Below are positions 3,156 to 18,996 of a stretch of DNA of 64,000 nucleotides, piece by piece. Source of the stretch: an uncultured Desulfobacterium sp. (lineage in GTDB: Bacteria > Desulfobacterota > DSM-4660 > Desulfatiglandales > Desulfatiglandaceae); the NCBI GenBank assembly GCA_900258555.1, contig LT984854.1:1690860-1754859 (forward strand), read 5' to 3'. The number at the start of each line of letters is the position of its first letter. Position 1 is the stretch's first letter. Below the pieces are notes generated by a model, which ran no database searches, was not told where the DNA came from, and worked only from the letters and a program-made list of their open reading frames with translations. A program made the position numbers and the translations under genes.

Positions 3156-4877
3156 TTGAAACCCACTATCATCAATGAAATCTTTGAGCATTATCGAAAG
3201 GAAGTGGCATCCTGGCTTAATGATTTGCATGCATTGATCAAAGACATCGAAGACCGTTCATTGGCCGAAGTAGTCAATGACATTCTGCTGCATGTGAACG
3301 AACCCTTCTTGTTTGTAGTCGTTGGTGAAATCAAGGCCGGTAAGAGCAGCTTTATAAATGCACTTTTGGACACTGATATTTGCCGGGTCGATCCGGCGCC
3401 TTGTACGGACACTATTCAGCAGATTGTCTTTGCCGATCAACAAACTGAAACGATAATTAACCCCCACCACCGTAAGATCGGCCTGCCCGCATCTGTACTC
3501 AGGCACGTCAGTATTGTGGATACACCCGGAACCAACACGGTCATAGAACATCACCACGAGATAACTGAGCGGTATATTCCGAACAGCGGACTGGTGCTCT
3601 TTGTATTTCCCGCCAAAAACCCCCATACCCGCACTGCTTGGGATCTCCTAGATTACGTCAGCGAGCAATGGCGAAAAATAGTGGTCTTCGTGTTACAGCA
3701 AGCCGACTTGGCAACGGAGAATGAGCTTCGCATCAATATGGCCAAAGTGCGCGAATACGCGGAAGCCAGGGGGATCCAAGCTCCAGTGATTTTTGCTGTT
3801 TCCGCCAAATGGGAGGAGGAAAAAAATCCGAAAAGCGGGTTTGATCCTGTTCGCACTTATATCAGGGAAACCGTTACCGGGGGCCGTCATCTTTATCTGA
3901 AATTGTCAACAACCCTTGCCTCCGGGGAACAGGCTCTAAGGCGTGTGTATGACGCGTTAAAGGTGGAGCAGGCCCGATTGGAGGCGGACCGAGGCGTTGC
4001 TGAACGAATTCGACAAGTCCTTGAGACCGGCAAGAAAAATTCAGAAAGGGATATTGAGCAGTTTGTGGACATCCTCTGCGGCCGCTATGATCGGATCGGG
4101 CTTGAAATTCGGTCGGATTTTGAGGAGGGGCTGTCCGTGGCGGCGCTTTACAGACGGGCCGTCAGCGGCGCGTTTAACCGAAAAAAATCCGTCACTGCAT
4201 GGTTGGAGGAACTTCAGTCCCGATTCGAAAACCGGCTGGCCGAAGCTCTTATGCAGGAGGTCGGCGAGCGGTCCCTGCAATTTATGGAAACCATTCAGGA
4301 TACAGCTGGACGGATAGATGAGGTGCTGGGGCAGTCTCTTACGTTCCCTATCGGAAAAAAGCGTAAGGGCCTGTGGAATGAAAAACGTGCAGAGCTGGTA
4401 ACCGAAATTCGGCGCAGAATAGACGCGTTAGCCGCGAAGGATCTTTTTCATGAGACGCTGGTGGCCAATCCGGCTGACATGCCCTCGCGGTTGATGAGCG
4501 GCGGCGCCTTCACGCTGCTGGGTGCGCTTTTGTTGACGACCCATGTGGGCTTTTTGGATATTACAGGCGGCATCCTCACGGGCTTTGGACTGATCATGAC
4601 TGGTGCGGTACTTGTAGCCAAGCGAGGAAAAATCATCAGGGAGTTTTCCGGGGCTATTCAACAAGGCCGTGATCAATTTCGCGACCGTCTGATTCAAGCC
4701 CTGAGCGAGCGTTTTTTACATCTTCACACGGAGATATCGGAAAGTGTCAAACCCTTTCTGACGCATATCGAGGCCCAGGAACGCCATCAGGCAGAATTGA
4801 TGGCGCGCGGTGAGGCGCTTCAACAGCGGATGCAGCTCCTTTCTCAGCAGATCAACAACGACATGGAGGCAGGCTGA
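3156..4877 (+). CDS. Bacterial dynamin-like GTPase
   Basis: A 573-residue protein from a TTG start with an AAGGAG site. The P-loop GEIKAGKSS is near residues 57-65, a threonine-containing switch I (PAPCTDT) follows, and G3 is DTPGTN near 122. The G4 position reads QQAD near 181 instead of N/TKxD. Long charged helices occupy about 240-440. A hydrophobic hairpin of about 45 residues (LLGALLLTTHVGF through GLIMTGAVLVA) lies near 445-490, and a coiled-coil tail closes the protein. This order of GTPase, helical neck, membrane paddle and C-terminal helix is that of bacterial dynamin-like proteins, which bind and remodel membranes. It has no partner gene nearby, although many bacterial dynamins come in pairs. 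No convincing terminator was seen in 4878-5027. Confidence 0.85.
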   Translation: MKPTIINEIFEHYRKEVASWLNDLHALIKDIEDRSLAEVVNDILLHVNEPFLFVVVGEIKAGKSSFINALLDTDICRVDPAPCTDTIQQIVFADQQTETIINPHHRKIGLPASVLRHVSIVDTPGTNTVIEHHHEITERYIPNSGLVLFVFPAKNPHTRTAWDLLDYVSEQWRKIVVFVLQQADLATENELRINMAKVREYAEARGIQAPVIFAVSAKWEEEKNPKSGFDPVRTYIRETVTGGRHLYLKLSTTLASGEQALRRVYDALKVEQARLEADRGVAERIRQVLETGKKNSERDIEQFVDILCGRYDRIGLEIRSDFEEGLSVAALYRRAVSGAFNRKKSVTAWLEELQSRFENRLAEALMQEVGERSLQFMETIQDTAGRIDEVLGQSLTFPIGKKRKGLWNEKRAELVTEIRRRIDALAAKDLFHETLVANPADMPSRLMSGGAFTLLGALLLTTHVGFLDITGGILTGFGLIMTGAVLVAKRGKIIREFSGAIQQGRDQFRDRLIQALSERFLHLHTEISESVKPFLTHIEAQERHQAELMARGEALQQRMQLLSQQINNDMEAG

Positions 4878-5027: not shown

Positions 5028-6371
5028 TCATAAATGTTCTTTTCGATTATCTATAAGAACTCGCTTCTGTGCTCCAGGACTTAAAATGATTTCTTCAAAG
5101 CATGTTATCGGTTCAATAAAAAGCCTTTTTTTGCAGGATTCAATCTGAGGGATTATCATTATCTTCTCCATTGCAGCAGCACAAACTTCATCCCTGTTTG
5201 ATTTACTGCTAAGACTCAGGGTAATTGTAAGGCAATCTTTATTCCCACGGGTTGAAACCTCAGCTTTATAATCCATCACACCAGGCAGTGCAAAAAGTTC
5301 TTCATCCAGAAGCTGAGTGATAAGCGGCTTTTCCGAGTCTAGATAAACTGCGGCGTTCATACGGCAGAAAATTTTATCTAATCTTTTTAAAACCGTACCA
5401 CAAGGACAGGGTTTTGTAAGAAACCTGGATATATCGCCTGTGCGATAACGGATCAGGGGCATCCCTACACGATTCAGAGTTGTTATAACTACTTCTCCAG
5501 CCTCACCATCAGGTAAAACCTGTCCGGTTTTCGGATCTATAATTTCGATGAAGATATCGGCTTCGCGCATGTGATGACCGCAGTGAGCCTCACATTCCAC
5601 TCCCCCTCCCCAGCCCATCTCAGTCATACCATAATGGCTGTAAGCCTCACAGTTGTATTCACTTTCCAGCACACTGGAAATGATGTCAGGGACATAGTCG
5701 GTGGTCAAAAGTACTTTTGTAATCCTGCCTTTTAGGTATTTGCGACCATTGCCGGATTGAAATAGTGCAAAAATATGAACCGGCGCCCCTACAAGGCACT
5801 TTATGTCATGCTTTAAAACAGCCTCTACAGTTTTTTCAGGAGATATGACAAAACCGTGAATAATGCTCTCTACATTCATGCGCAACAAGGCCCGTGAAAG
5901 AAGATCCCCGACACTATTGGGTCTGTCTCCGGGTAAAAGGATCATAACTCTGTCTCCGGCCTTAACCAGAGTTGACATGCCGTAATGAAAAAAATCCAGG
6001 GTATGATTGAGGTCTTCCTTTGTGAAAAAAAGTCGTTTTGCAGGACCTGTAGTAGCAGAACTATGCAATGTAACACAGCGCTCAACAGCGCTTTGAGAGA
6101 CACAAAGAAATTGCAGCGGATGATTTATTAAATCGTCAGAAACTGTAAATGGGAGCATTGATAAGTCATTAATAGTTATTACAGGGTCACTTCCAAACCC
6201 GGCCAGAAGATTTCTATAAAAACGACTTTTTGAGCGGGCATAAGAGATGGTCTGTCTGATTTTCTCAAGTTGAAAGGCCTCAATAGCTGATCTGGTCAGG
6301 TGTGACAGTTCTCCATTTGATGAAATTTTATTTAGGATCCAGTCCTCCAAAGGAGTTTTGGAAATCATCAT
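5028..6371 (-). CDS. PaaK-like AMP-dependent CoA ligase (DVU_1553 family)
   Basis: About 447 residues of the adenylate-forming superfamily, closest in layout to phenylacetate-CoA ligase. The phosphate loop is degenerate (LHSSATTGPAKR). The AMP-binding motif is YSHYGMTEMGWGGG, followed by DGEAGEVVITTLNRVGMPLIRYRTGD. A Cys-rich insert (CEAHCGHH) and a CPCG motif are present. The start is ATG at 6371, which overlaps the upstream radical SAM stop as ATGA with a GGGGA site; a longer reading to 6437 would overlap by 70 bases. It is the last gene of the seven-gene operon. I recall NCBI naming such proteins after DVU_1553. The substrate is unknown. Confidence 0.75.
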   Translation of the reverse strand: MMISKTPLEDWILNKISSNGELSHLTRSAIEAFQLEKIRQTISYARSKSRFYRNLLAGFGSDPVITINDLSMLPFTVSDDLINHPLQFLCVSQSAVERCVTLHSSATTGPAKRLFFTKEDLNHTLDFFHYGMSTLVKAGDRVMILLPGDRPNSVGDLLSRALLRMNVESIIHGFVISPEKTVEAVLKHDIKCLVGAPVHIFALFQSGNGRKYLKGRITKVLLTTDYVPDIISSVLESEYNCEAYSHYGMTEMGWGGGVECEAHCGHHMREADIFIEIIDPKTGQVLPDGEAGEVVITTLNRVGMPLIRYRTGDISRFLTKPCPCGTVLKRLDKIFCRMNAAVYLDSEKPLITQLLDEELFALPGVMDYKAEVSTRGNKDCLTITLSLSSKSNRDEVCAAAMEKIMIIPQIESCKKRLFIEPITCFEEIILSPGAQKRVLIDNRKEHL

Positions 6372-7750
6372 TGTCCCCGGTAAATGGGTTTGTTTTGTCT
6401 GTCTGTAAGATTGTAAGCGCAAAAAGGTATCATACAACCGTCATTTGAGACAATATGGATACAGCAGTCCCTAAGACGCTCCAAATCCAGGTTCCAGACA
6501 TCCTGAAAGGCCATGCCTGAAATGGAAAAAGATCGGTTACGGACAAAATCCAGAAAATCATCCAAGTCCATACCGCTTATGGAGCTTGGAGCCCCTTGCC
6601 CTGAGGTTGTTGACCCCTGAACATCCGGCGCAGACCATTGTCTGGCTACCGAAAAGATGGTCTGTCTTGCGCCTATATCGGCCCTTACGGGCTTATTGCA
6701 GCAAGAGTTTGTTTCGGATATAATCGGCTTTAAGCCTCCGCCCGACATCACAAGAAACTTGCCGCTAAATGAACAAAGGGCATTTTCGCATCCCGGAGGA
6801 TGAAAATTGGAGGCCACTACCATACCGTTGCTTTGAATTTCAAGGGCCGTTATTATCTCGGGGATCGTAATACGGTTATGATTTTCCACAGTTCCCGGGT
6901 GTCGCCCAAAATAACTGACCGGCTGAAAATGGATACCCCTTACCGAAGGATATTCTTTTAACCCAAATTCAAGAATAGATCCGATTTCATGATCGTTTAT
7001 CCCCGGCACGATCATGGGAACCAATACAACGCCGATACCGGCCCTTGCACATCGCTCTATGGCCAGCCTTTTTTTGCCAAACAACGCTTGTCCTCTCAGG
7101 GCCATGTATACTTCATCACTGACCCCGTCAAACTGTAAAAAGGCAGATGAAAGTCCGGATTCTTTAAGGCTTGTCGCATAGTCTTTTTCTTCTGCCAGAC
7201 GGAGGCCATTTGTATTCAACTGAATAAAACCGAATCCTGCCTGCCTTCCCATTTCAATTATTTGGGGCAGATCATGTCTTAATGTCGGCTCACCACCTGA
7301 AAGCTGTATATTGCATGATGGAGCGGCTTTTATGACCCGCTGAAACATAAATTCAATCTTATTGATATCTGGATCAGGGTCATCTTGATCTATTGAAGAG
7401 GCAAAACAGTATCTGCAATGAAGATTACAGCGTTTAGTGATTTCAATAAGAGCCGTACAGGTAATCTGCCTATGAGAGGAGCACAAACCACAGTCAAAAG
7501 GGCATCCTTTTGTGATTTCGGTATAGCACACAGGTGGTTGTATAGGTACCTTCGGCCTAGTCCATGTCTCAAAAGGCGGATCTTTTCGCCAGATTACAGT
7601 AGAAAAATGACCGTGGGATTCACAGTGCTTTTCAAGATATACATCTAAGCCATTCGTCACCCGTAATGCACGGATTTTTTTAAGACATACCGGGCAAAGA
7701 CTTTCAGTTTGAGATAACACCCGGCGCTGTGAAGATGAATCAATCTTCAT
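6368..7750 (-). CDS. trsS: Radical SAM protein TrsS-like (DVU_1554 position)
   Basis: About 460 residues. An N-terminal CPVC knuckle comes first. Two CxxxCxxC motifs follow: CPFDCGLC at 83-90 and CNLHCRYC at 108-115, the latter being the usual [4Fe-4S]/SAM motif. SGGEPTLR near 151 is the SAM-binding GGE. The motif HPPGCENALCSF at about 317-328 has Cys321 where I recall selenocysteine in some homologues, which would explain the family label radical SAM (seleno)protein. The double-motif N-terminus resembles the radical SAM branch that acts on unactivated carbons. The start was set at 7750 (GGAAA site), which overlaps the previous gene by 11 bases. The product of the reaction is unknown. Confidence 0.75.
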   Translation of the reverse strand: MKIDSSSQRRVLSQTESLCPVCLKKIRALRVTNGLDVYLEKHCESHGHFSTVIWRKDPPFETWTRPKVPIQPPVCYTEITKGCPFDCGLCSSHRQITCTALIEITKRCNLHCRYCFASSIDQDDPDPDINKIEFMFQRVIKAAPSCNIQLSGGEPTLRHDLPQIIEMGRQAGFGFIQLNTNGLRLAEEKDYATSLKESGLSSAFLQFDGVSDEVYMALRGQALFGKKRLAIERCARAGIGVVLVPMIVPGINDHEIGSILEFGLKEYPSVRGIHFQPVSYFGRHPGTVENHNRITIPEIITALEIQSNGMVVASNFHPPGCENALCSFSGKFLVMSGGGLKPIISETNSCCNKPVRADIGARQTIFSVARQWSAPDVQGSTTSGQGAPSSISGMDLDDFLDFVRNRSFSISGMAFQDVWNLDLERLRDCCIHIVSNDGCMIPFCAYNLTDRQNKPIYRGQ

Positions 7751-8201
7751 TGTTTCCGGCATCAAATGGATCAAATCCGTTTTGGATAAGAATTTCTAAA
7801 ACATAATTATAGGTGTCTATGAGAAGCCGCCTGCACAGATCAGGGTCAGGCGCCTTTGATTCTTCTCCTATTATATCCCTGCACAAAGTCCCATTATAAG
7901 AGGCGCAAGCAGTTTTTTCAAACCATTCGCTCAACTCAGAGTACATCAACGGCAGTATGTCATTTTCTTCTTCGTTGTTATTTCCTTTTCCCGCGTACAA
8001 GGCAAGCATACAGGCTGCACCGGTAAAGACTCCACAGGTATTGCCGCTCCCCGCTGCCCCCATACAAAGACCTGACATGGCCCGAACAAGGTCCTTGTTT
8101 GTTTTACCTAGGGCTTCCAATGCAAGGACAATCAATGCCTGGCTGCAACAATAACCCCGTGCGCCCAACTGCAATAATTTGAAATCAATTTCGTCTATCA
8201 T
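7740..8201 (-). CDS. C-GCAxxG-C-C family protein (DVU_1555 family)
   Basis: A 153-residue protein with YCCSQA near residue 18, GLCMGAAGSGNTCGVFTGA near 44-62 and CASYNGTLCRDI near 99-110, plus a last Cys near 124. This is the spaced cysteine pattern of the C_GCAxxG_C_C family, thought to bind redox metal clusters. An AGGAAG ribosome binding site precedes ATG at 8201. The gene is fifth in the operon and overlaps the radical SAM gene. The family has no proven biochemical role. Its constant presence beside the radical SAM and CCG proteins suggests electron delivery. Confidence 0.8.
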   Translation of the reverse strand: MIDEIDFKLLQLGARGYCCSQALIVLALEALGKTNKDLVRAMSGLCMGAAGSGNTCGVFTGAACMLALYAGKGNNNEEENDILPLMYSELSEWFEKTACASYNGTLCRDIIGEESKAPDPDLCRRLLIDTYNYVLEILIQNGFDPFDAGNNED

Positions 8202-8280
8202 TACGTGTCTTCCTAGGGTCGATAGATTATAAGATGTTTTTCGTTGTTCACTTGGCCCCTAGAACCCTTGGACCCTCAAG

Positions 8281-8300
8281 CCATCGGCTTCAGCCGATGG
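8281..8300 (-). other. Intra-operon hairpin over a stop codon
   Basis: CCATCGGCT and AGCCGATGG are perfect 9-base inverted arms with only two bases between them. The TGA of the methyltransferase gene (8290-8292) lies at the tip. There is no T-run on either strand, so it is not an ordinary terminator. It precedes the largest gap inside the operon (8202-8289). It may stabilise mRNA or attenuate expression of the three distal genes. Confidence 0.5.
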
Positions 8301-9048
8301 TGGTTGACTTTTTGCAGGCAATCATCAGAAAATATCCGGGTCTTGCATTACGAACAGCCTGTCCGTGTCCATCAGAACAATCGCCCGGCAGCATTATACT
8401 TATAAGCATATCAAGAGAGCCTAACTCCCACACTATGTTAGCGGCAAGCTGCGCCAGGCTTTCAGAATGATCCTCCCACAAAAGCACGTCAAAACCTGCG
8501 CGTTGCACCAAATCGCTCACTTGCTCACGGCTCATGGCGCCTGATAGACAGGAAGAGATGCCCTCGCCATCTTTCCTTATTGACGCTAAAACTTCACAAG
8601 CACCTGAATCATGTTTATGTTTTAATCCCCGAAATACACCCGGATTTCTTAAATAAATATCTGAAATTACCAAAAACCCTGTCTTTCTCAACACCCTGTA
8701 AAATTCATGTGCGGCTTTATCGGGATAAGATAACAAGGAAAGCACGCATTCACAAAATACGCCGCTAAGCCTATTGTCTGCAAATGACAGATCTTCCGCA
8801 CTTGACTGAACAAATGGGAACTCGCCGGAAGACTTCGGTACCCGAAGATCAATACCGCAAACAGAACAGCCGTATTTTTTATGAAGAAATTTAAGAGTAG
8901 TCCCGAAGCCGCAACCAATATCTATAATTTTATCGTTTATGGAAAAGCCGCAGAAATCCGCCGCCCTTTCGGTAATAGCAAGACCCCCAGGCCTTAATGT
9001 GTCACCGGTAATTGAACCCAACTCAGAAGGTATGGTATACAGAGTCAT
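8290..9048 (-). CDS. trsM: SAM-dependent methyltransferase TrsM-like (DVU_1556 family)
   Basis: About 252 residues. Motif I is IIDIGCGFGTTL. CGIDL follows as the end of the second strand, then SSAEDLSFAD and a Tyr/Arg-rich FYRVLRKTGFLVISD, the UbiE/MenG-type class I layout. ATG at 9048 leaves four bases after the previous stop; a TTG at 9066 would overlap it by 14. Its place between the small redox protein and the C-GCAxxG-C-C gene matches, from memory, D. vulgaris DVU1556. The acceptor molecule is unknown. The gene neighbourhood suggests a cofactor or thiol/selenol modified for the Mo enzyme. Confidence 0.78.
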   Translation of the reverse strand: MTLYTIPSELGSITGDTLRPGGLAITERAADFCGFSINDKIIDIGCGFGTTLKFLHKKYGCSVCGIDLRVPKSSGEFPFVQSSAEDLSFADNRLSGVFCECVLSLLSYPDKAAHEFYRVLRKTGFLVISDIYLRNPGVFRGLKHKHDSGACEVLASIRKDGEGISSCLSGAMSREQVSDLVQRAGFDVLLWEDHSESLAQLAANIVWELGSLDMLISIMLPGDCSDGHGQAVRNARPGYFLMIACKKSTTIG

Positions 9049-9052
9049 CTGA

Positions 9053-9265
9053 TCATTTATCTTCAAGAAGCTGCTCTACTTCTGCTATTTTACCGAGAGC
9101 AAGTTCTTCGGAAATAAGCACAAAACCGCATTGAGGACATACGGGGAGCCGGGCATTGATTGTCTTACCCATATAAGTTAAGCTTGCAGGACCTACAGAT
9201 AAAAACATATCGCATTTGTGGCATTTCCATCTCAAATCTTCGGGATCAGTATAACTGTTTGTCAT
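9053..9265 (-). CDS. Small CxxC redox protein (DVU_1557 family)
   Basis: 70 residues with two CxxC pairs (CHKC near 15-18 and CPQC near 43-46), the geometry of a zinc ribbon or rubredoxin-like knuckle. The C-terminal tail is an acidic helix. It overlaps the dicluster gene by 4 bases and is followed immediately by the methyltransferase. Translational coupling and conserved position suggest an accessory electron or metal carrier; the family is uncharacterised. Confidence 0.75.
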   Translation of the reverse strand: MTNSYTDPEDLRWKCHKCDMFLSVGPASLTYMGKTINARLPVCPQCGFVLISEELALGKIAEVEQLLEDK

Positions 9266-11538
9266 TGTCCTTCCTTCCCGGAAACTTCCATACGGTGGCT
9301 GTAAGCATTATATATTGTAAAACCTCCATCAGACGGAATGTATTCCACCCAAAATGTGGTATTATACAATTTCAATGAGGCCTTGAAATGACCTGAATCT
9401 GGGTTGTAAAACTTATGCCCGCTGATTTCGGCATGATGGATAACTTCTTCTAAATCCGTTACAAGTATTCTGCGATCCTCCAGCACCTGCCATACTTCGG
9501 AAGAGATATTTAAAACAGGTCCAGCATGATCTATTCTTTCTCCGCGGTCTGTTGCCCACAGCTCATTGAGTAAATCGTTCTTGAGGCGCAAACGATTTTC
9601 CTGCCGCTGTGACCAGCCTGGTCTTTTGCGGGCAGCCGGATCAGATTCGCCGTCCTTGAGAAAGATCAGATCCAATATATGAACCGTGCGTTTTCCTGCT
9701 CCGGCAAGATTATCCCGGCAAACAGAACAATATGTCACATAATCTGCTGAACTCCGGCCGGCCAGACGATTAATAACGGTTTTTGCCAGATCAGGATTGG
9801 CATTTTGCATCAGGCCCCCGAAACCGCAACACTCCGCATATTCACTTTTTGCCGTAAGATCCACAAAAGGCTGTCCCATTTTTTGTAACAAATTACGAAC
9901 ATTGGTTTGCAGGTGAGATTCATATCGTGTAGTGCAAGGATCATGCAATGCAAGGGGCACAGCATCTTTTAAACTGGTAAAATCATGGGGCAGGCCGGTT
10001 TCATCAAGGATACTCCACAGTGATATTATGGGAGCTTCATGAAGATATGTCTTAAATATATTATAGCAGGTTGAACATGCTAAGATAACCTGCGGCCTGC
10101 CAAGATCCGCCCACTTTCTTTGCCACATTGAAAACTGCTCTTCAAAAAGTTGTTCTTCTCCGGCCCAGAAAGCCGGGGCGCTGCAGCATCCAAGCATCAG
10201 GCCCACACCGCCGGTCATGGTTTTTCTTAAGTGGGCATAGACGCTTTTTACTTCTCCCGGCGAAGAGGCGCAGAGCTGGCATCCTGGGAAAAAAATATAT
10301 GCGCTCGATTCATAAGTTGGTTCATGCAGGGCCATGGCAAACTGGTCGCTGTTACTAAACTGCATATCAAGAAGAGCAAATTCATGGGCCGATGGAGGCA
10401 TTTTGCCCTTTTGAACCATATCTCTTCGCGCCTTAAGGCACAGCGACTGCATTGCGAAACCTTCCGGGCAGACAGCCTCACACAATCCGCAAAGGCTGCA
10501 TGAATTGATCAATTTATTGGCCGGATGGCGGCCCGCGACAATGTTTGCGTTATTATAAATCTCTCTGACATATTTACGGGGATAGGAATCGAACTTCTCA
10601 AGATAGGAACAAGCCTTGACGCATTCAAGGCATTCGCAGTTTAAACAGCGGCCTGCTTCCTGTATCGCTTCTTGGGTTGTATACCCCGATGCCTGATTAA
10701 GAGGTTTTATCGCAGGAACATAGGGGACATAATCAATATTCGTATATAGGCGGGTTGTAAAAGGACCCTCTTTTTCTCTCCCTGACGTCAGTGACACCTT
10801 CTGTAAAAAGCGATCTATGGAGGTCGCCGCCCATCTGCCTTCGGCAGCCTGCCATACCGGAGACTTGGGGTCGTATTGTAAAAAACCCCGGGAAAAAACA
10901 CCTTTCAGATCTTTCAGACCGGAAGGCACATTCCTGTAATCCGGCCCTAGATATATGGCATCAAAGCGACGCGCAAGATCTTCAAGAAAATTTTCATCGT
11001 TAACGGAAGAATCCAATTCCGCTGCCACTCCTAATGAAAAAAGTATATCCAGCTCCTCTCTCACCACATTGTGCGGTAAAATTTCTTCCTTTATCGAAAG
11101 CAGATCCCCTCCAAGTTGACTGCCTGACTCAAATACTGTGACCTTATAGCCCTTGCGTGACAAATCCCAGGCTGCCGTAAGACCGCTTAACTTGCTTCCA
11201 ACAACCGCAATACTCTTGTCTTTTTTGGGCAGCGGATAAATTCGCTGCTTTGGCGACTGTGTTTTCACGCAGGCGCGCTCCAGCATCCCAATCTCAATCG
11301 CCTGCCCGGCCTCTTTGCGTTTGCAGTGCTCTTTACACGGAGCATCGCAGATACGTCCTATGATACCGGGAAAAGGCATGGCCTTTCTTAGAATCTTCCA
11401 CGCCTCTTCCCATTTTTCCTGCGACACATTTGCTATAAAGGCACGGACATCAACATGAATCGGGCAGGCAGCCATACATTCAGGTGGTTCTTCCTGGACA
11501 CATCCGCTTTCAAGAAGCCGCAGTTCATTTTGATCCAT
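9262..11538 (-). CDS. Dicluster-binding pyridine nucleotide-disulfide oxidoreductase-like / CCG-domain protein
   Basis: 758 residues in four parts. The N-terminal 4Fe-4S region resembles the glutamate synthase small subunit (Cys13, 21, 25 and CxxxCxxxC near 64-72). A Rossmann segment follows whose expected GxGxxG is degenerate (VVGSKLSGLTAA). A ferredoxin-like double-cluster region comes next (CLNCECLECVKAC and CSLCGLCEAVCP). Two CCG modules, as in HdrB/HdrD/GlpC, have CCSAPAFW and CCGFGG. A C-terminal beta domain of about 110 residues closes the protein. I recall NCBI calling the family pyridine nucleotide-disulfide oxidoreductase/dicluster-binding protein. It probably carries electrons between the Mo-hydroxylase and a soluble or thiol acceptor. 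It is 13 bases downstream of the hydroxylase gene. Confidence 0.8.
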   Translation of the reverse strand: MDQNELRLLESGCVQEEPPECMAACPIHVDVRAFIANVSQEKWEEAWKILRKAMPFPGIIGRICDAPCKEHCKRKEAGQAIEIGMLERACVKTQSPKQRIYPLPKKDKSIAVVGSKLSGLTAAWDLSRKGYKVTVFESGSQLGGDLLSIKEEILPHNVVREELDILFSLGVAAELDSSVNDENFLEDLARRFDAIYLGPDYRNVPSGLKDLKGVFSRGFLQYDPKSPVWQAAEGRWAATSIDRFLQKVSLTSGREKEGPFTTRLYTNIDYVPYVPAIKPLNQASGYTTQEAIQEAGRCLNCECLECVKACSYLEKFDSYPRKYVREIYNNANIVAGRHPANKLINSCSLCGLCEAVCPEGFAMQSLCLKARRDMVQKGKMPPSAHEFALLDMQFSNSDQFAMALHEPTYESSAYIFFPGCQLCASSPGEVKSVYAHLRKTMTGGVGLMLGCCSAPAFWAGEEQLFEEQFSMWQRKWADLGRPQVILACSTCYNIFKTYLHEAPIISLWSILDETGLPHDFTSLKDAVPLALHDPCTTRYESHLQTNVRNLLQKMGQPFVDLTAKSEYAECCGFGGLMQNANPDLAKTVINRLAGRSSADYVTYCSVCRDNLAGAGKRTVHILDLIFLKDGESDPAARKRPGWSQRQENRLRLKNDLLNELWATDRGERIDHAGPVLNISSEVWQVLEDRRILVTDLEEVIHHAEISGHKFYNPDSGHFKASLKLYNTTFWVEYIPSDGGFTIYNAYSHRMEVSGKEGQ

Positions 11539-11551
11539 GATCAGATTTTTT

Positions 11552-14269
11552 CTAGGCAGTTAACCCGGCCAACACCACTTTTGGCAGCGCAGGCAACTTG
11601 GTAATCCTCACCCCACAGGCGTTATTAATCGCATTTATGATGGCAGCTTGGGGAGTGGTTAAAGGCAGCTCTCCACAGCCGCCGGCGCCAAAGGGGCCGT
11701 CCTCTCGAGGTGTTTCCACATAAATGATTTCCATATCATCGGGTATTTGCTTGATATATGGAAACCCTGCTCCGGCCATCGAAGAATGCTTTTCAATATC
11801 TTCAAAATTTTCACTGAGCGCAAGCCCGACACCCTGCGCCAGCCCTCCATAAAGCTGGCCGTCTACAACCAGCTTGTTGTTAATCTTCCCAATGTCAGCA
11901 ACCAGTGTCATTTTCAGAACTTTTGTTTTACCGGTTTTTGTATCCACCTCCACTTCCGCCATGAAAACTCCATACATGTGGGCTCGTAGAGTATTGCCCT
12001 GGCAGTTCTCATCCAGATGATCACATTGATTTGCCCAGCCACCGGTTTGGACAACCGGAATATTTTCTTTTATCATCTCTTCATAAGTGCGATACGTCCC
12101 ATCCTGCTTGCGCATGGCCTTTAAAAGTAACTCGCACGCTACCTGAATGGCGCGACCGGTTACAAACTGAGAGCGGCTGGCGACTGAACCCATATTTTGA
12201 GGTGTTTTACTCGTATCATTCATCACAAGCCTGATCTTCTCAGGGGGCATGGCGATCGGCCGCAGGGCCTCGTGGGCGGTTCCCAAAACCCCCATATCAG
12301 CCCCCTGACCATGGTATTCCCAGGTGACATAAACTGTAACACCGTTGTCGGGCATTAACTCTATCCGTGCTTCCGCACCGTCTACACCGCCCAACCCGGA
12401 GCCAAAGATGCCGATGGAAATGCCGATCCCACGCTTCTTCCCGGCGGTTGATTCCTTCTTGGCCTTTTCCAATGCCGTTTTATACTTCGGCCGTAATATG
12501 TCTAGCATTTCGGGCAGGCTGTATACATCAGGTTTCTGGCTTGTTGGTGTAGTGGATCCCGGACGATAGACATTTTTATAACGCAGTTCCAGTGGATCAA
12601 TACCGATTTTTTCAGCCAGTTCATCCATGAGTACTTCAGAGCAGAACTCAACCGCGGTTGAACCCATGCCTCTAAAGGCGCAGCCCTGCGCGTGATTGGT
12701 ATAGACGGTTAGAGCCTGCCCCTTAATATTCGGGATGTCATAGCCCGCGCCCATATACTGTGCCCCCATCATGGCGGTTAAATCCCCCAGGTCGCAGTAA
12801 GGGCCATACCCTATTGTGATGTCCTCTTCCATGGCCAGAAGTTTGCCGTCTTTATCCGCCGCTAATCTCAATTTTGAATGGGTTGGTGGTCGTTTACCGG
12901 TCATAGTCATCTGCTGGCGGTAGTCATATTTAAGGAAAACCGGCCTGCCCGTAGCAAGACAGGCGACGCCTAAAATAGGCTGGGATGTGATTGTGGCCGC
13001 ATAACCAAAATCTCCTCCGGGTGGATTCTGAACCATAATCAGCTTAGTCGGTTCAAGCCCGATGCTCATGCAGACCTGAGCAGAGTTCATGAAAAGGGCA
13101 CAGGACTTGGAGTGAATGACCAATGTATCTTCCTCATTAATATAGGCAAAGCCGACATCAGGCTCGACAGGCATATGGGGATGTCGTTGATGATAGAATT
13201 CATCCTCTACCATGTAATCAGCTTGCTCAAAAATCGGTCCTGTTTCATTTCCCTTGGCGATCTTTTGAACAAAGTAGACATTAGGCGTCCCCGGATGAAT
13301 CTCCATAGCGTCTTCAGCCATAGCGGCCTGGGCATTCATATATGCCGGTAGTTCTTCTAACTCTACCTTTACCTTCTCAACGGCTGCCTTAGCATGGGCT
13401 TCAGTATCCGCACAAACTATTGCTAACACGTCGTCATAATGGAATATTTTCTTGTCGTTTAGAATCGGGCGATCTTGAGTATCGGCCTTGCTGCCCGGTA
13501 TGCTCATCAATGTTGGAATACGATTACTGCCCCGGACGTCTTTGTGAGTGACAATTTTAAAGACCCCGGGCATCTTCTCAGCCTCTGATGTGTCAATGGA
13601 TATGATATTGGCGTGGGACACCTTGGCCTGGACAAGGGCCAATTGTAAAGTGTCAGCAGGCAATTGCATACCTCTATCCGCCCCAAAGTCCCAGGTGCCG
13701 GTAACCTTGGCTACTCCACTGGGACGAGGGTAACTGCTGCCCCAAAGCCTTCCGTCTTCCGGGAGCTGATATGAAAGTTTGTCAATGCTCATTTCACCAC
13801 GCAGGACTTTTGCCGCGTCCATGACAGCATCCACCAACTGTTTATAGCCGGTGCAACGGCAGGCATTTTTGTGCCGGTCAAACCAGTCTCTTGCTTCTTC
13901 TCGGGTTGGGTTGGAGTTCTCATCCAACAGGGCCTTTGCAGATACAATAAAGCCAGGGGTACAAAATCCACACTGAGCTCCACCGTGAAGTACCCAGGCC
14001 AATTGCAGCGGATGTAGATTAGACGGCGTTCCTATCCCTTCAATAGTTGTAACAGCAGCGCCGTCGGGAACTCGCTTCATCTTGGTGATACAGGCACGAA
14101 TAATTTTCCCATTCATAATCACGTTGCAGGCGCCACATTGACCTTCATTGCAGCCCACTTTTGTCCCAGTCAGCAATAGTTGCCCACGCAGGACATCAGC
14201 CAGCGAGGCATCCGGTTCCACAATTAATGTCCTGTTGACTCCGTTTATATTGAAAGTTTTTTTAATCAT
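11552..14269 (-). CDS. mop: Molybdenum-dependent aldehyde oxidoreductase, MOP type
   Basis: 905 residues; the D. gigas enzyme has 907. It is a single-chain xanthine-oxidase-family protein that oxidises aldehydes to acids. The plant-type [2Fe-2S] cysteines are Cys40, 45, 48, 60 and the second cluster is Cys100, 103, 137, 139, the same numbering as the D. gigas enzyme. The Mo-pterin domain begins near 190 (PSGVAKVTGTWDFG). GAGGCGELPLT carries the active-site Glu at 867 (Glu869 in D. gigas). There is no FAD domain, as expected for MOP. An AGGAGG site precedes the ATG. It is the first gene of the operon, so the downstream genes are candidates for its maturation or electron transfer. Substrate specificity cannot be read. 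Confidence 0.92.
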   Translation of the reverse strand: MIKKTFNINGVNRTLIVEPDASLADVLRGQLLLTGTKVGCNEGQCGACNVIMNGKIIRACITKMKRVPDGAAVTTIEGIGTPSNLHPLQLAWVLHGGAQCGFCTPGFIVSAKALLDENSNPTREEARDWFDRHKNACRCTGYKQLVDAVMDAAKVLRGEMSIDKLSYQLPEDGRLWGSSYPRPSGVAKVTGTWDFGADRGMQLPADTLQLALVQAKVSHANIISIDTSEAEKMPGVFKIVTHKDVRGSNRIPTLMSIPGSKADTQDRPILNDKKIFHYDDVLAIVCADTEAHAKAAVEKVKVELEELPAYMNAQAAMAEDAMEIHPGTPNVYFVQKIAKGNETGPIFEQADYMVEDEFYHQRHPHMPVEPDVGFAYINEEDTLVIHSKSCALFMNSAQVCMSIGLEPTKLIMVQNPPGGDFGYAATITSQPILGVACLATGRPVFLKYDYRQQMTMTGKRPPTHSKLRLAADKDGKLLAMEEDITIGYGPYCDLGDLTAMMGAQYMGAGYDIPNIKGQALTVYTNHAQGCAFRGMGSTAVEFCSEVLMDELAEKIGIDPLELRYKNVYRPGSTTPTSQKPDVYSLPEMLDILRPKYKTALEKAKKESTAGKKRGIGISIGIFGSGLGGVDGAEARIELMPDNGVTVYVTWEYHGQGADMGVLGTAHEALRPIAMPPEKIRLVMNDTSKTPQNMGSVASRSQFVTGRAIQVACELLLKAMRKQDGTYRTYEEMIKENIPVVQTGGWANQCDHLDENCQGNTLRAHMYGVFMAEVEVDTKTGKTKVLKMTLVADIGKINNKLVVDGQLYGGLAQGVGLALSENFEDIEKHSSMAGAGFPYIKQIPDDMEIIYVETPREDGPFGAGGCGELPLTTPQAAIINAINNACGVRITKLPALPKVVLAGLTA

Positions 14270-15183: not shown

Positions 15184-15921
15184 ATGCCTGACAATAATAT
15201 ATTAATAAATGGCAGGCAAATTTTGTTCGATGCCGGAGAGACAATTCTTGAGGCCGCATCCCGATATGATATTTCGATCCCTACGCTTTGTCATTTAAAG
15301 GAAAATGCACCCAATGGGAAATGCAGGATATGCGTGGTGGAAATCGAAGGGGAAAAAGAGCTTAAAACTGCCTGTAATACCCCATGCGGGGCAGACATGG
15401 TGATTAAAACCGAATCAAGAATGGTTGTGGCGGACAGGAAAAAGACGTTGGTGGCTCTGGTTGCCTCCGGGAATCACAATTGCGCGGCAGCGACTGCATG
15501 GAATTCGCACCGGACCAATTTTCAGATTGCTGTACAGAATTATGACCATACCGGGAATCTATGTCCCTCATGGGGCGACTGCAGATTGCAGGACCTTTTG
15601 TACTATTATTATGTCAGACAGAAGGAACCGTTTGACATGAAACAGTATTTACAGAAAGAGATAGTAAACCCATTGATCGAGAGGGATTTCTCAAAGTGCA
15701 TTTTATGTGGCCGGTGTGTTAGCGTTTGCAATGAAGTACAGATTAACAGTGTCATCGTTTTTTGCGTTCAGGATGGCATGGCAAAAAATGTCACAAGAAA
15801 TAATACTTATCTTGCGTATTCTAATTGTGTGTTTTGCGGTGCATGTATCCAGGCATGCCCAGTGGGTGCCCTTTCTGAAAAAGAAAGCAGTGTGCAGGTG
15901 GCGGCCATGAGAAGTAACTAA
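15184..15921 (+). CDS. Iron-sulfur protein, NuoG/HoxU-like subunit of formate dehydrogenase
   Basis: 245 residues. The [2Fe-2S] motif is CHLKENAPNGKCRIC with a later Cys (residues about 37-64). The His-Cys3 motif of NuoG follows (HNC, then CPSWGDCRLQDL). Two [4Fe-4S] motifs, CILCGRCVSVC and CVFCGACIQACP, sit near 178-225. This is the N-terminal electron-wire module of complex I subunit G without its Mo-like domain, as in soluble NAD- or ferredoxin-linked formate dehydrogenases and hydrogenases. The AGAGGAG site before the ATG is good. Its partner is probably the selenoprotein at 16957, although a dehydrogenase gene separates them. No NuoE/NuoF-like diaphorase is present here. Confidence 0.82.
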   Translation: MPDNNILINGRQILFDAGETILEAASRYDISIPTLCHLKENAPNGKCRICVVEIEGEKELKTACNTPCGADMVIKTESRMVVADRKKTLVALVASGNHNCAAATAWNSHRTNFQIAVQNYDHTGNLCPSWGDCRLQDLLYYYYVRQKEPFDMKQYLQKEIVNPLIERDFSKCILCGRCVSVCNEVQINSVIVFCVQDGMAKNVTRNNTYLAYSNCVFCGACIQACPVGALSEKESSVQVAAMRSN

Positions 15922-16013
15922 AATCCGCACAATCTGTCTATCTTGAAGATATTGATCGGATTATTGAGGCCATGTCTGCAATAGCCAAATCAAGTCCTTC
16001 TCAAGCTGGATAA
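15921..16013 (+). pseudogene. Possible C-terminal gene remnant
   Basis: A frame opening right after the stop of the iron-sulfur gene reads KSAQSVYLEDIDRIIEAM and continues to a TAA at 16011. It is helix-like and resembles the tails of PLP-dependent aminotransferases (VDRIVEA type). It has no start codon of its own apart from an internal ATG. It may be the relic of a deleted gene or chance. Confidence 0.2.
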
Positions 16014-16110
16014 AAGGCGATGGATTGTATTTTTTTCTCTCCGTTATGCTTATCATGGCGTAACGAAGAGCGTTCTAATAATTAACCATAAGACTAAGAG
16101 GGAGGGGATT

Positions 16111-16905
16111 ATGTCTCTGGAAAAAAAGATTATAGTTGTAACAGGAGCAGCATCAGGTATAGGCGCTGAGACCGCCAAAACGCTCAAGGCACAAGGTGCA
16201 ACTGTTATTGGTGTTGACATCAACGAGCCTAAAAATGTTGATCAATATATAAAGGCGGATCTCGGAGATCCAGCCTCTATTGTTGCAGCAGTTGAAAAGA
16301 TTCCAAATGGAATTGACGCCCTGTGCAATATTGCCGGCCTGCCGCCTTCAAAGGGCCGGGTCCCTGTAATAAAAGTCAATTTCTTAGGGCTAAGGCACTT
16401 CACCGAGCAGCTCATAAATAAGATGAATAATAATGCGTCTATCGTCAATCTGGCCTCTCTTGCTGGGTCCGGCTGGCCTGAGGCTGGAAATCAAATCAGG
16501 CCTTTCCTTACTTTGCGGGATTTCAATGGAGTTGAGGCCTTATGTAATGAAGTAGGTATTGATGATGAGCGCGCTTACTCCTTTTCAAAAGAGGTGGTCA
16601 TCGTGTGGACCATGATTAACCGCTGGACCTGGCGTGACCGTGGAATCAGGGTCAATTGCATCAGCCCCGGACCGGTAGAAACCCCCATACTTCCCGACTT
16701 TCTTGAAAACTTTAAGGATAAGCTTGAGAAGGACAAGGATGTGATGGATCGTTTTGGCCGTCCGGACGATATTGCGCCTGTGGTCGCCTTTATGTGCAGC
16801 GATTCAAGCGCATGGATAAAAGGGGTAAATATCCCATGCGATGCAGGCATGACCGCACATGTGCTTACTCAAATGTTCGGATATGCGGATGCCGCGGGCT
16901 TTTGA
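16111..16905 (+). CDS. Short-chain alcohol dehydrogenase, coniferyl-alcohol dehydrogenase-like
   Basis: 264 residues of the classical SDR family. The cofactor motif TGAASGIG is at 11-18 and an acidic Asp (GVDIN) suggests NAD preference. CNIAG is the NNAG equivalent. The catalytic Tyr156 and Lys160 are in YSFSK and the Ser is in NLASLAGS. ISPGPVETPI and the C-terminal DAGMTAH complete the fold. The overall pattern resembles proteins annotated as coniferyl-alcohol dehydrogenase, but the true substrate is uncertain. The GGGAGGGG site is strong. It lies between the two formate dehydrogenase genes, 51 bases before the large subunit. An alcohol-to-aldehyde step could feed the Mo-hydroxylase encoded divergently; this is inference. 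Confidence 0.82.
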   Translation: MSLEKKIIVVTGAASGIGAETAKTLKAQGATVIGVDINEPKNVDQYIKADLGDPASIVAAVEKIPNGIDALCNIAGLPPSKGRVPVIKVNFLGLRHFTEQLINKMNNNASIVNLASLAGSGWPEAGNQIRPFLTLRDFNGVEALCNEVGIDDERAYSFSKEVVIVWTMINRWTWRDRGIRVNCISPGPVETPILPDFLENFKDKLEKDKDVMDRFGRPDDIAPVVAFMCSDSSAWIKGVNIPCDAGMTAHVLTQMFGYADAAGF

Positions 16906-16956
16906 CCCGGGCTTTGAATTGGAAACACCGGCTTGGGAGACTTGGAGAAGGGATTA

Positions 16957-18996
16957 ATGGACTACAAATTTGTAAAAACCACCTGCCCGTTTTGCGGCTG
17001 CGGGTGTCAGATGCTGCTGGAGGTGCTGGACGGCAGACTTATAGGTACCCTGCCGTTTAAAGGCGCTCAGATGAACCAGGGAAAACTCTGCATCAAGGGG
17101 TGGAACGCTCACGGTTTTGTCCAAAGCCCGGACAGGCTTACCAAGCCGCTTATTAGAAAAAACGGAAAGCTTCAAGAGGCATCCTGGGAAGAGACATTTG
17201 ATACTGTCGCATCGAGAATTTCTGATATAAAGACACGCTATGGCGCAAACAGCATGTCATTTTTGAGCTCCGCACGGTGTAGCAATGAGGAGAACTATTT
17301 ACTTCAGAAGCTTTGCAGGGCGGGGGTTGGAACAAACAATGTAGATCACTGCGCCCGGCTCTGACACGCGCCCACTGTGGCAGGTCTTGCCGCGGCATTT
17401 GGAAGTGGCGCAATGACAAATTCCATTCCTGAGGTCGAGGATGCCGATTGCATATTCCTCATTGGTTCAAATACCTCTGAGGCCCACCCCCTCATAGCCC
17501 ATAGGATATTTCGCGCAGTAGGGAAGGGCGCGAAGCTGATTGTGGTTGATCCCAGGAAGATCCAGATGACCATGGTGGCGGATATCCACGTAAGGATTAA
17601 TTACGGGACTGATGTAGCCTTTTTAAACGCCATTATGCATGAGATTATTAAAAACAACTGGCACAACCCTGAATTTATCAAGGAACGGACAGAGGGCTTT
17701 GAGGCATTGGAAGAGACTGTCAAAAAATATTCTCCAGAGATGGCCTCTTCCATTTGCGGGGTGCCGCCTGATGTAATACATGAGGTGGCGCGCCTCTACG
17801 CCACATCAAAGACCTCCAACATCATGTACACCTTGGGTATTACTGAACACTCTCATGGTGTAGATAATGTAAAGTCTTTGGCGAATCTTGCCATGCTGAC
17901 AGGCCACATAGGAAAGCCATCTAGCGGCGTAAATCCCATGCGCGGACAGAATAACGTCCAGGGTGCCTGCGACATGGGCGCACTTCCCAATGTATATCCT
18001 GGCTACCAGGTCGTAACAAATGAGGATATAAGGGCCAAGTTTGAGAAGGCCTGGGGGGTTAGTCTTTCTCCGAACATCGGAAAGATGATTCCGGATATGA
18101 TGGACGGTTTAATTGATGGAACTGTCAAGGGGATGTATATTTTCGGAGAAAATTCCGTTGAAACCGATCCTAATATACACCATGTCCGCCATGCCCTTGA
18201 GTCCGCAGAATTACTGGTCGTCCAGGACATCTTTCTTACACAGACAGCCAAGTTTGCGCATGTGGTGCTTCCTGGTGCGGCATGGGGTGAAGTGGAAGGG
18301 ACATATTCAAATACTGAGCGCAAGGTTCAACGCATACGCAAGGCAGTAGAACCTCCTGGAGAGGCAATGCCAAATTGGACGATCTTGATGGAGATCGGCA
18401 AAAGACTAGGTGTGAAAATGCATTATGAAACGGCGGAACAGGTATTCAATGAGATGACAAGCCTCACACCCAGTTTTGCAGGTATCACATATGAGAGGAT
18501 AGACAAGACTGACATCCAGTGGCCTTGTCCGTCCCTAGACCATCCAGGCACAAAATATCTACATCAGGAAAAATTTACACGCGGCCTGGGGCTATTCCAT
18601 GCAATCGAGTACCGACCTTCTGAAGAACTGCCGGACGACGAATTCCCTGTCATATTAACAACGGGAAGGAGATACGCACACTACCACTCCCGCACAATGA
18701 CCGGCCGGTGTGCAGCCCTTGACAGGGAATTTCCAAGGCCTATGGCGCAAATACATTTTAAAGATGCAGAAAGACTGGGCCTGGCTGACGGAGATTCCAT
18801 GAAGGTGACATCCAGAAGAGGAGAGGTCATAACCCCGGTAAGGGTGGGCGATGTTGTCCCTGAAGGCTCCATATTTATGGATTTTCATTTTGAAGATGCC
18901 AATCCAAACTGGCTGTTGGGCACATCACTTGATCCTGTATCAAAGACCCCTGACTACAAGGTGTGTGCTGTGAGGATAGAAAGACAGGAGGATTAA
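16957..18996 (+). CDS. fdhA: Formate dehydrogenase catalytic subunit, selenocysteine-containing
   Basis: About 679 residues when the in-frame TGA at 17362-17364 is read as selenocysteine (Sec136; E. coli FdhF has Sec140). The [4Fe-4S] motif CPFCGCGC starts near residue 9. The Sec context DHCARL-Sec-HAPTVAGLA is that of FdhF-type enzymes. Mo/W-bis-MGD signatures follow (GSNTSEAHP, MRGQNNVQGACDMG, HVVLPGAAWGEVEGTYSNTERKV). The C-terminal dinucleotide domain has TTGRRYAHYHSRTMTGR. The start at 16957 has GGAGAAGGGA. The size fits soluble FdhF, with no twin-arginine signal, so it is cytoplasmic. If TGA is taken as stop, the gene looks falsely split. Confidence 0.95.
17362..17395 (+). promoter_or_regulatory. 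UGA selenocysteine codon and SECIS hairpin
   Basis: After the TGA (17362-17364) and a 10-base spacer, CTGTGGCA (17375-17382) pairs with TGCCGCGG (17388-17395) over eight positions, two of them G-U. The apical loop is GGTCT. The loop GGUC and the spacing match the E. coli fdhF SECIS recognised by SelB. selA, selB, selC and selD are not in the window. Confidence 0.92.

Follow-up and report, generated by a model that had tools for sequence, protein, structure and literature searches.

A conserved seven-gene operon joins a molybdenum aldehyde oxidoreductase to a Tes-like radical SAM module that may make a redox cofactor

What do a radical S-adenosylmethionine (SAM) enzyme, a methyltransferase and an adenylate-forming ligase do beside the gene for a molybdenum-dependent aldehyde oxidoreductase? 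The question is raised by a minus-strand operon of seven open reading frames (ORFs), running from position 14269 to 5028 of a 64,000-nt stretch of DNA from an uncultured Desulfobacterium sp. (contig LT984854.1; the whole stretch is called the window below). Its products are, in order, the aldehyde oxidoreductase MOP, the dicluster flavoprotein DICL, the small protein DUF7479, a methyltransferase (MTase), the C-GCAxxG-C-C protein CGC, the radical SAM protein TrsS and a ligase (Table 1). A sequence-only reading of the window had reported this operon within the same limits, counting its genes once as six and once as seven; the ORFs show that seven is correct, and each of the seven proteins matches a curated NCBIfam model of its own above the cut-off. 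The likeness to the gene order DVU1553-1559 of Desulfovibrio vulgaris proved right in substance, as four of the families are named after DVU_1553, DVU_1555, DVU_1556 and DVU_1557, and PMC10920352 gives DVU_1559 as the aldehyde oxidoreductase of D. vulgaris. The genes were also taken to form one functional unit with MOP, which the comparisons below support, and a biosynthetic role is still the best reading of the radical SAM, methyltransferase and ligase genes. Our tentative proposal is that MTase, CGC, TrsS and the ligase synthesise, for use by an aldehyde-oxidising complex of MOP and DICL, a small redox cofactor or prosthetic group; modification of the molybdenum cofactor (Moco), formation of tetraether lipids and simple aldehyde catabolism appear less likely.

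The gene families, their neighbourhood and the name TrsS are already catalogued in NCBIfam (NF045645, NF045646 and NF045663-NF045669, covering TrsS and DVU_1551-DVU_1557), where the family names indicate the same seven families and a D. vulgaris-like content. The copy in the window differs in having cysteine in place of selenocysteine (Sec) in TrsS and in that the extension genes are not adjacent, and the catalogue assigns no function. TrsS is also a listed selenoprotein family, according to a selenoproteome review (PMC13188914, citing Haft & Tolstoy 2025). The earlier statement that the linking families are without known function thus stands as far as function goes, but all of them have names; a literature search, which did not reach Haft & Tolstoy 2025, found no paper assigning a function. 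As far as searched, the Desulfovibrio gigas link, the modular split and MOP-less clade, the sister family linked to another molybdenum enzyme, the comparison of metal sites with Tes and the conserved DUF7479 tail described here are new, and Haft & Tolstoy 2025 may hold some of them.

Conservation was assessed in 80 TrsS loci from one TrsS scan of GTDB species genomes, which fall in Thermodesulfobacteriota, Bacillota, Campylobacterota and Chloroflexota, with a few metagenome-assembled genomes (MAGs) labelled otherwise. The complete seven-gene set is present in 52 of the 80, and 50 of these share one common order (tolerating a swap of MTase and CGC), with a median span of 8.0 kb from MOP to the ligase start in the conserved loci. 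Pairwise protein distances across the seven families correlate at r = 0.78-0.93 with relatedness not removed, which argues that the families were inherited largely together. In most other species the operon is extended by genes for an XdhC-like maturase (57 loci), the DVU_1551 nucleoside triphosphate (NTP) transferase (55) and a histidine phosphatase (50), none of which adjoins the operon in the window. Directed searches of the same 80 loci found aldehyde dehydrogenases (ALDH) as neighbours in 20, iron-type alcohol dehydrogenases (Fe-ADH) in 15 and sigma-54 activators in 25, which is consistent with a place in alcohol or aldehyde metabolism. A DUF5714-type Cys-rich protein adjoins TrsS at L115, L121 and L122, where the operon is rearranged.

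Phylogenetic profiling, proposed earlier as a check, finds MOP and TrsS nearly one-to-one. Among 247 Desulfobacterota genomes, TrsS was found in 28 and MOP above its cut-off in 22, with TrsS in 21 of these 22; the exception (G220) has MOP fragments at contig ends, and a further genome (G103) has TrsS and a MOP gene interrupted by a contig end. All 16 TrsS-positive genomes among 300 from the Desulfosporosinus phylum carry MOP, one of them truncated at a contig end. Fisher tests on presence tables of this kind ignore shared ancestry, and the comparison within a single family is more telling: 199 Desulfovibrionaceae genomes divide into 123 with both genes, nine with MOP only, five with TrsS only and 62 with neither. 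Seven discordant loci were examined, and nearly all reflect contig ends or a TrsS scored piecewise: TrsS is actually in place in G638 and G654, MOP lies at a contig end in G714 and G748, the contig of G726 begins within DICL and G709 is an incomplete MAG. The sole real mismatch of the seven is G561, which has a tandem TrsS pair and the ligase with no MOP or DICL nearby.

The system consists of two separable modules, MOP-DICL-DUF7479 (module A) and MTase-CGC-TrsS-ligase (module B). In two Syntrophorhabdus-like genomes MOP-DICL-DUF7479 (L119, L120) stands apart from a cluster in which the DICL C-terminal domain (CTD), fused to DUF7479, is followed by MTase, CGC, TrsS and the ligase (L054, L071), both modules retaining a DUF7479 part when split, and in Desulfovibrio An276 the parts are spread over three contigs with a DUF7479 copy on two of them. 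An accessory set without MOP, which the sequence-only reading held to be contrary evidence, exists in part: six genomes, five from Desulfobacterota (L109-L113) and one from Desulfovibrionaceae (L167), have a TrsS-centred core and no MOP, but the flavin-binding half of DICL is missing there too, and in most of them so is CGC. The MOP-less loci begin with a gene for a stand-alone HdrD-like protein that corresponds to the central part of DICL (positions 310-663 of NF045663); a CTD gene (positions 673-757), DUF7479, MTase, TrsS and usually the ligase come next. The neighbours are an HdrD-like protein, 2-hydroxyacyl-CoA dehydratase/benzoyl-CoA-reductase-type (HGD-D) proteins and a BcrAD activator at L110, cytochrome b and HdrD at L111, and a dimethyl sulfoxide (DMSO) reductase-type molybdenum enzyme, a corrinoid protein, RACo and a TRAP transporter at L113; at L167 (8234-13316) a tandem pair of diverged TrsS-like genes is accompanied by genes for a ligase and an HGD-D protein, on a contig that has no MOP. 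In a TrsS tree made by a quick method and rooted on a sister radical SAM family, seven MOP-less proteins form one clade (SH-aLRT 92, with two long branches inside it) and the MOP-linked proteins another (98), so that the partnership with MOP was apparently gained or lost once and has hardly changed since. We count in favour of a cofactor made by module B the near one-to-one presence of MOP and TrsS together with the single MOP-linked clade, the separable modules each with a DUF7479 part, the company of other redox machinery in MOP-less genomes, and the frequency of alcohol and aldehyde genes beside MOP-type loci.

Whether module B instead acts on the Moco of MOP can be judged from D. gigas, whose aldehyde oxidoreductase gave the first crystal structure of the xanthine oxidase family and has a broad aldehyde specificity. 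MOP of the window has two [2Fe-2S] domains, two Moco-binding domains and no flavin adenine dinucleotide domain (Pfam matches Fer2, Fer2_2, Ald_Xan_dh_C and MoCoBD_1/2 only), aligns end to end with the enzymes of D. gigas (1sij/1vlb) and D. desulfuricans (1dgj), and has the catalytic-Glu segment GAGGCGELPL opposite GASGVGELPL of D. gigas. The D. gigas genome was located with the first 309 residues of the crystallised chain, taken from the PDB alignment: genome G575 encodes a MOP 100% identical to it over 309 aa. The locus (L143) reads MoeA-like protein, MOP, nitroreductase, DICL, DUF7479 (ending LEDK), MTase, CGC, TrsS and ligase, with its TrsS scoring 607 bits against a TrsS profile built in this analysis, so that the crystallised enzyme is a full-length homologue with the same domains, encoded inside the same type of operon. 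The nitroreductase-family gene between MOP and DICL (L143:6963-7568) apparently also occurs in G591. The structure, solved at 1.28 Å, contains an ordinary molybdopterin cytosine dinucleotide (MCD) and no flavin (PMC10223205).

Because D. gigas carries the complete operon and yet shows plain MCD at this resolution, a stable covalent change of Moco by TrsS, MTase or the ligase is very unlikely; this comparison, of a published structure with a genome reading and involving no new chemistry, speaks against the suggestion that the accessory set modifies the cofactor, removes the most obvious hypothesis and narrows the choice of experiments. A broader maturation of the MOP cofactor or active site, in which the three enzymes would alter the pterin, the nucleotide or a molybdenum ligand, might draw on the strict co-occurrence of MOP and TrsS, on the MoeA-like, XdhC-like and NTP transferase genes that occur in the longer version of the operon, and on the sister radical SAM family. 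Four of the seven loci of this family, which scores below the TrsS cut-off, place it directly next to a DMSO-reductase-family molybdenum enzyme (L133, L134, L135 and L138; about 727 aa in three, a longer ORF in L138), and in L134 MoeA, MobA/MobB, MoaC and Mog-like genes adjoin the pair. Against it stand the D. gigas structure, by which maturation as a stable covalent change is largely refuted, the occurrence of the TrsS core without MOP, and the XdhC-like and DVU_1551 genes, which are dedicated to MCD synthesis and sulfuration, for which module B is therefore not needed; overall we regard maturation as improbable. The genome that contains the window has 12 Ald_Xan_dh_C (xanthine oxidase family) matches in 5.4 Mb, a large set.

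In the available part of PMC10223205 the D. gigas enzyme is treated as a lone protein with flavodoxin as a putative partner, DICL not being considered. DICL fuses a Fer4_20/GltD-like flavin-binding half to a dicluster ferredoxin, HdrD-like CCG domains and the CTD (Pfam matches Fer4_20, NAD_binding_8, Fer4_17 and two to CCG). We propose that it is the electron acceptor of MOP and, given its flavin-type Rossmann half and Fe-S centres, it would be a better genetic candidate than flavodoxin for the missing partner. MOP would hydroxylate an aldehyde to the acid, and two electrons would leave it by way of its [2Fe-2S] centres for DICL; the latter would contribute the flavin and 4Fe-4S/CCG centres that MOP lacks, with DUF7479 and the DICL CTD as a docking or carrier part. 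The operon thus names a concrete candidate for a flavin/Fe-S partner that has hitherto been putative, and a further candidate in the compound that would be made by a radical SAM enzyme of the Tes type, itself kept with MOP by acetogens, sulfate reducers and Sulfurospirillum.

The CTD is a separate gene of about 90 aa in L110, L112 and L113 and is fused to DUF7479 in L054, L061 and L071; it bears a weak resemblance to RelE/HigB-like folds (Foldseek E-value non-significant). An assignment of the CTD to DUF4258 was rejected, since its hhalign probability (29%) is no better than that of negative controls (22-24%). DUF7479, earlier called a Cys-rich small redox protein, is more exactly a zinc-ribbon or rubredoxin-like domain with two CxxC motifs, and matches YgiT/MqsA-type zinc fingers with an hhalign probability of 94% (mismatched controls 22-24%). 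It follows the CTD as YgiT follows DUF4258 in DUF4258-YgiT pairs (RelE-fold and MqsA-type), and an antitoxin ancestry is probable, but the link from CTD to DUF4258 stays at the 29% given above and neither protein looks like an active toxin-antitoxin partner. Genes for DUF4258 and then a YgiT-type zinc finger were seen at L149, L150, L151, L152, L157, L161 and L165.

The sequence (L/I/M)EDK followed by the stop codon is the exact end of 92 of 94 genuine DUF7479 copies, fusions to the CTD and DICL included (where loci overlap, a few genes may have been counted double, and out-of-frame hits were removed by eye); the exceptions are the G081 copy (L110) and the fused An276 copy. Conservation to the last residue suggests a C-terminus that is recognised or modified, or a docking tail. 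DUF7479 might then be a carrier to which module B attaches a prosthetic group at the terminal Glu-Asp-Lys, as lipoyl and biotinyl ligases do on carrier domains: TrsS, MTase and the ligase would build a protein-bound redox group there, and DUF7479 would then link the HdrD-like centres of DICL with MOP or another redox enzyme by ferrying electrons or acyl groups. The near-universal tail, its retention in fusions, the presence of DUF7479 in both modules when split and an adenylating ligase within module B speak for such an adduct, which is nevertheless hypothetical; the tail could instead serve in docking or cap a helix, two copies lack it, and we consider this version unlikely.

The reaction of TrsS may be approached through Tes (GDGT-MAS, MJ0619; 7tol and 7tom), its closest solved structure (sequence E-value 1e-81, Foldseek fold E-value 8e-43). 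The best models for TrsS are those of TrsS itself, matched over positions 2-441 of 441 in NF045646, and Tes, with MoaA and PqqE just distant matches, and its predicted structure (pLDDT 89) resembles 7tom over the whole fold with a TM score of 0.80. In 46 aligned proteins (numbering from the TTG at 7774) the columns are invariant at the rubredoxin-like site (C27-x2-C30-x20-C51-x2-H54), the N-cluster site (C91-x3-C95-x2-C98 and H101) and the radical SAM site (C116-x3-C120-x2-C123), while the C-terminal site has a near-invariant Met421 at the labile-Met position and the cluster cysteines Cys437 and Cys452. All metal ligands described for Tes (PMC9433317) thus have invariant or near-invariant counterparts in TrsS, which shares the fold and all four metal sites. 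Tyr459, strictly conserved in archaeal Tes according to the same text, is replaced by Ile or Val (CCIHY against CCIHI/V). No sequence alignment to Tes was obtained between the two matched segments (chain positions 332-453), a gap that bears on the comparison with the hydrophobic double lipid pocket of Tes, and TrsS has in its place a stretch with the TrsS-specific motif PPG[C/U/T]ENALCSF. At the variable position the window has Cys, the Syntrophorhabdus group Thr and Desulfocicer vacuolatum (L087) Sec, encoded by an in-frame TGA; no other credible in-frame Sec was found in the operon proteins, many TGA hits in DUF7479 being out-of-frame noise. Since the metal ligands are kept and Tyr459 and the middle stretch differ, TrsS plausibly shares the chemistry of Tes, a radical attack on an unactivated carbon that involves an auxiliary cluster, and not its substrate.

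Membership of Tes itself was rejected for TrsS (343.5 bits to NF045702, cut-off 450; Tyr459 replaced). That TrsS nevertheless joins lipid tails as Tes does, the operon making membrane-spanning lipids, would agree with the relationship and the four metal sites, and bacterial Tes homologues of open role were noted by the Tes authors (PMC9433317). We judge it very improbable, given the sub-cut-off score, the changed Tyr459, the unaligned middle stretch and the strict link of TrsS with a soluble aldehyde oxidoreductase, and the further bacterial Tes-like homologues form separate, lower-scoring matches in the genome scan.

For the cofactor that we favour, we infer a route in which the ligase would activate a carboxylic acid as adenylate or thioester, TrsS would form a C-C or C-S bond in the manner of Tes, and MTase would complete the product, CGC and DUF7479 acting as redox or carrier parts. 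The users of the product would be redox complexes of the HdrD type, most commonly the MOP-DICL aldehyde oxidoreductase. MTase has a conserved N-terminal G-x-LRPGG motif in the family consensus, and the ligase, related to PaaK structures 4r1l and 2y27, conserves the adenylation core motifs SGTTG..KR, HYGMTE and RYRTGD. The arrangement recalls pyrroloquinoline quinone (PQQ) and mycofactocin, cofactors built by radical SAM enzymes and encoded beside the alcohol or aldehyde oxidoreductases that use them, an analogy from general knowledge that rests on radical SAM biosynthesis genes co-inherited with such an enzyme. The present operon differs in using a methyltransferase and an adenylating ligase in place of a SPASM-type maturase, a precursor-recognition protein (RRE) and a peptidase; searches of the neighbours in the fetched loci found no conserved RRE protein or peptidase gene. 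Those pathways start from a short precursor peptide with a conserved C-terminal core; DUF7479 combines an invariant C-terminus with a folded two-CxxC domain and is sometimes fused to DICL or the CTD.

Several points weigh against a cofactor made by module B. Literature searches on the DVU155x genes found no metabolite, phenotype or activity for the module B proteins, the available text of a D. vulgaris transposon survey gives no phenotype for these genes, and the substrate of the ligase is not readable from sequence. In vitro, flavodoxin accepts electrons from the D. gigas enzyme, and the available part of PMC10223205 reports no added cofactor for this. A shared operon, moreover, fits a simple catabolic pathway too, and this is the main rival: MOP would oxidise one particular aldehyde to its acid and the ligase would turn this into a CoA thioester, TrsS and MTase would act on the carbon skeleton and DICL would carry the electrons, no cofactor being made. 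The PaaK-type ligase, the ALDH, Fe-ADH and sigma-54 activator neighbours and the thioester-type HGD-D and BcrAD neighbours of MOP-less loci would suit such a route. It is nonetheless rather doubtful, because a Tes-type radical SAM enzyme and MTase retained in acetogens, sulfate reducers and Sulfurospirillum resemble biosynthesis more than breakdown of a single substrate, the D. gigas enzyme accepts a broad range of aldehydes, and neighbour searches found no thiolase, hydratase or dehydrogenase set conserved with the operon. If a new cofactor is indeed made, it would join the few redox cofactors built by radical SAM enzymes, and bacterial Tes homologues would gain a function.

Table 1. Features of the operon, in positions of the window
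Feature	Position	Strand	Evidence or remark
MOP, xanthine-oxidase-family molybdopterin aldehyde oxidoreductase, 905 aa	11552..14269	-	NF045668 1516 bits, cut-off 1100
DICL, dicluster flavoprotein, 758 aa	9262..11538	-	NF045663 1027 bits, cut-off 530
CTD, C-terminal domain of DICL	9262..9522	-	Separate gene or DUF7479 fusion in other genomes
DUF7479 (DVU_1557 family), 70 aa, two CxxC	9053..9265	-	NF045645 87 bits, cut-off 60; PF24292
Terminal Glu-Asp-Lys codons of DUF7479, stop directly after	9056..9064	-	Tail conserved among copies
MTase, class I SAM methyltransferase, DVU_1556 family	8290..9048	-	NF045667 216 bits, cut-off 155
Perfect 9-bp hairpin, MTase stop and MTase-CGC gap	8280..8301	.	No T-tract on operon strand
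CGC, C-GCAxxG-C-C protein, DVU_1555 family	7740..8201	-	NF045669 167 bits, cut-off 103; PF09719
TrsS, radical SAM, Tes-type metal-site architecture	6368..7750	-	NF045646 665 bits, cut-off 490
Cys codon of TrsS in PPG-C-ENALCSF motif	6788..6790	-	Sec or Thr in some relatives
Ligase (LIG), PaaK/F390-synthetase-like, AMP-forming, DVU_1553 family	5028..6371	-	NF045666 458 bits, cut-off 300

Stop and start overlap at the DICL/DUF7479 (9265/9262), CGC/TrsS (7750/7740) and TrsS/ligase (6371/6368) junctions and the DUF7479 and MTase genes almost abut, which argues for co-translation. The starts preferred from the sequence are ATG 7750 for TrsS (not TTG 7774), ATG 6371 for the ligase (not TTG 6437) and ATG 9048 for MTase (alternative TTG 9066). 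The hairpin is a possible site of mRNA processing or attenuation; no Rfam families or tRNAs were found within the window. On the 5' side of MOP a gap of about 0.9 kb precedes a divergent gene, and a dynamin-like GTPase gene (3156-4877, plus strand) converges on the 3' end of the operon.

Elsewhere in the window, at 16960-18996 (plus strand), lies a gene for a formate-dehydrogenase-like Mo/W enzyme, a selenoprotein with read-through at TGA 17362-17364 (CARL-U-HAPT), which ORF callers split into 16933-17364 and 17377-18996. Because this ORF reads through a TGA, the source organism probably uses Sec although its TrsS has Cys. Directly before it, at 15184-16905 (plus strand), are genes for a HoxU/NuoG-like Fe-S protein, probably the electron-transfer partner of the formate dehydrogenase, and a short-chain dehydrogenase.

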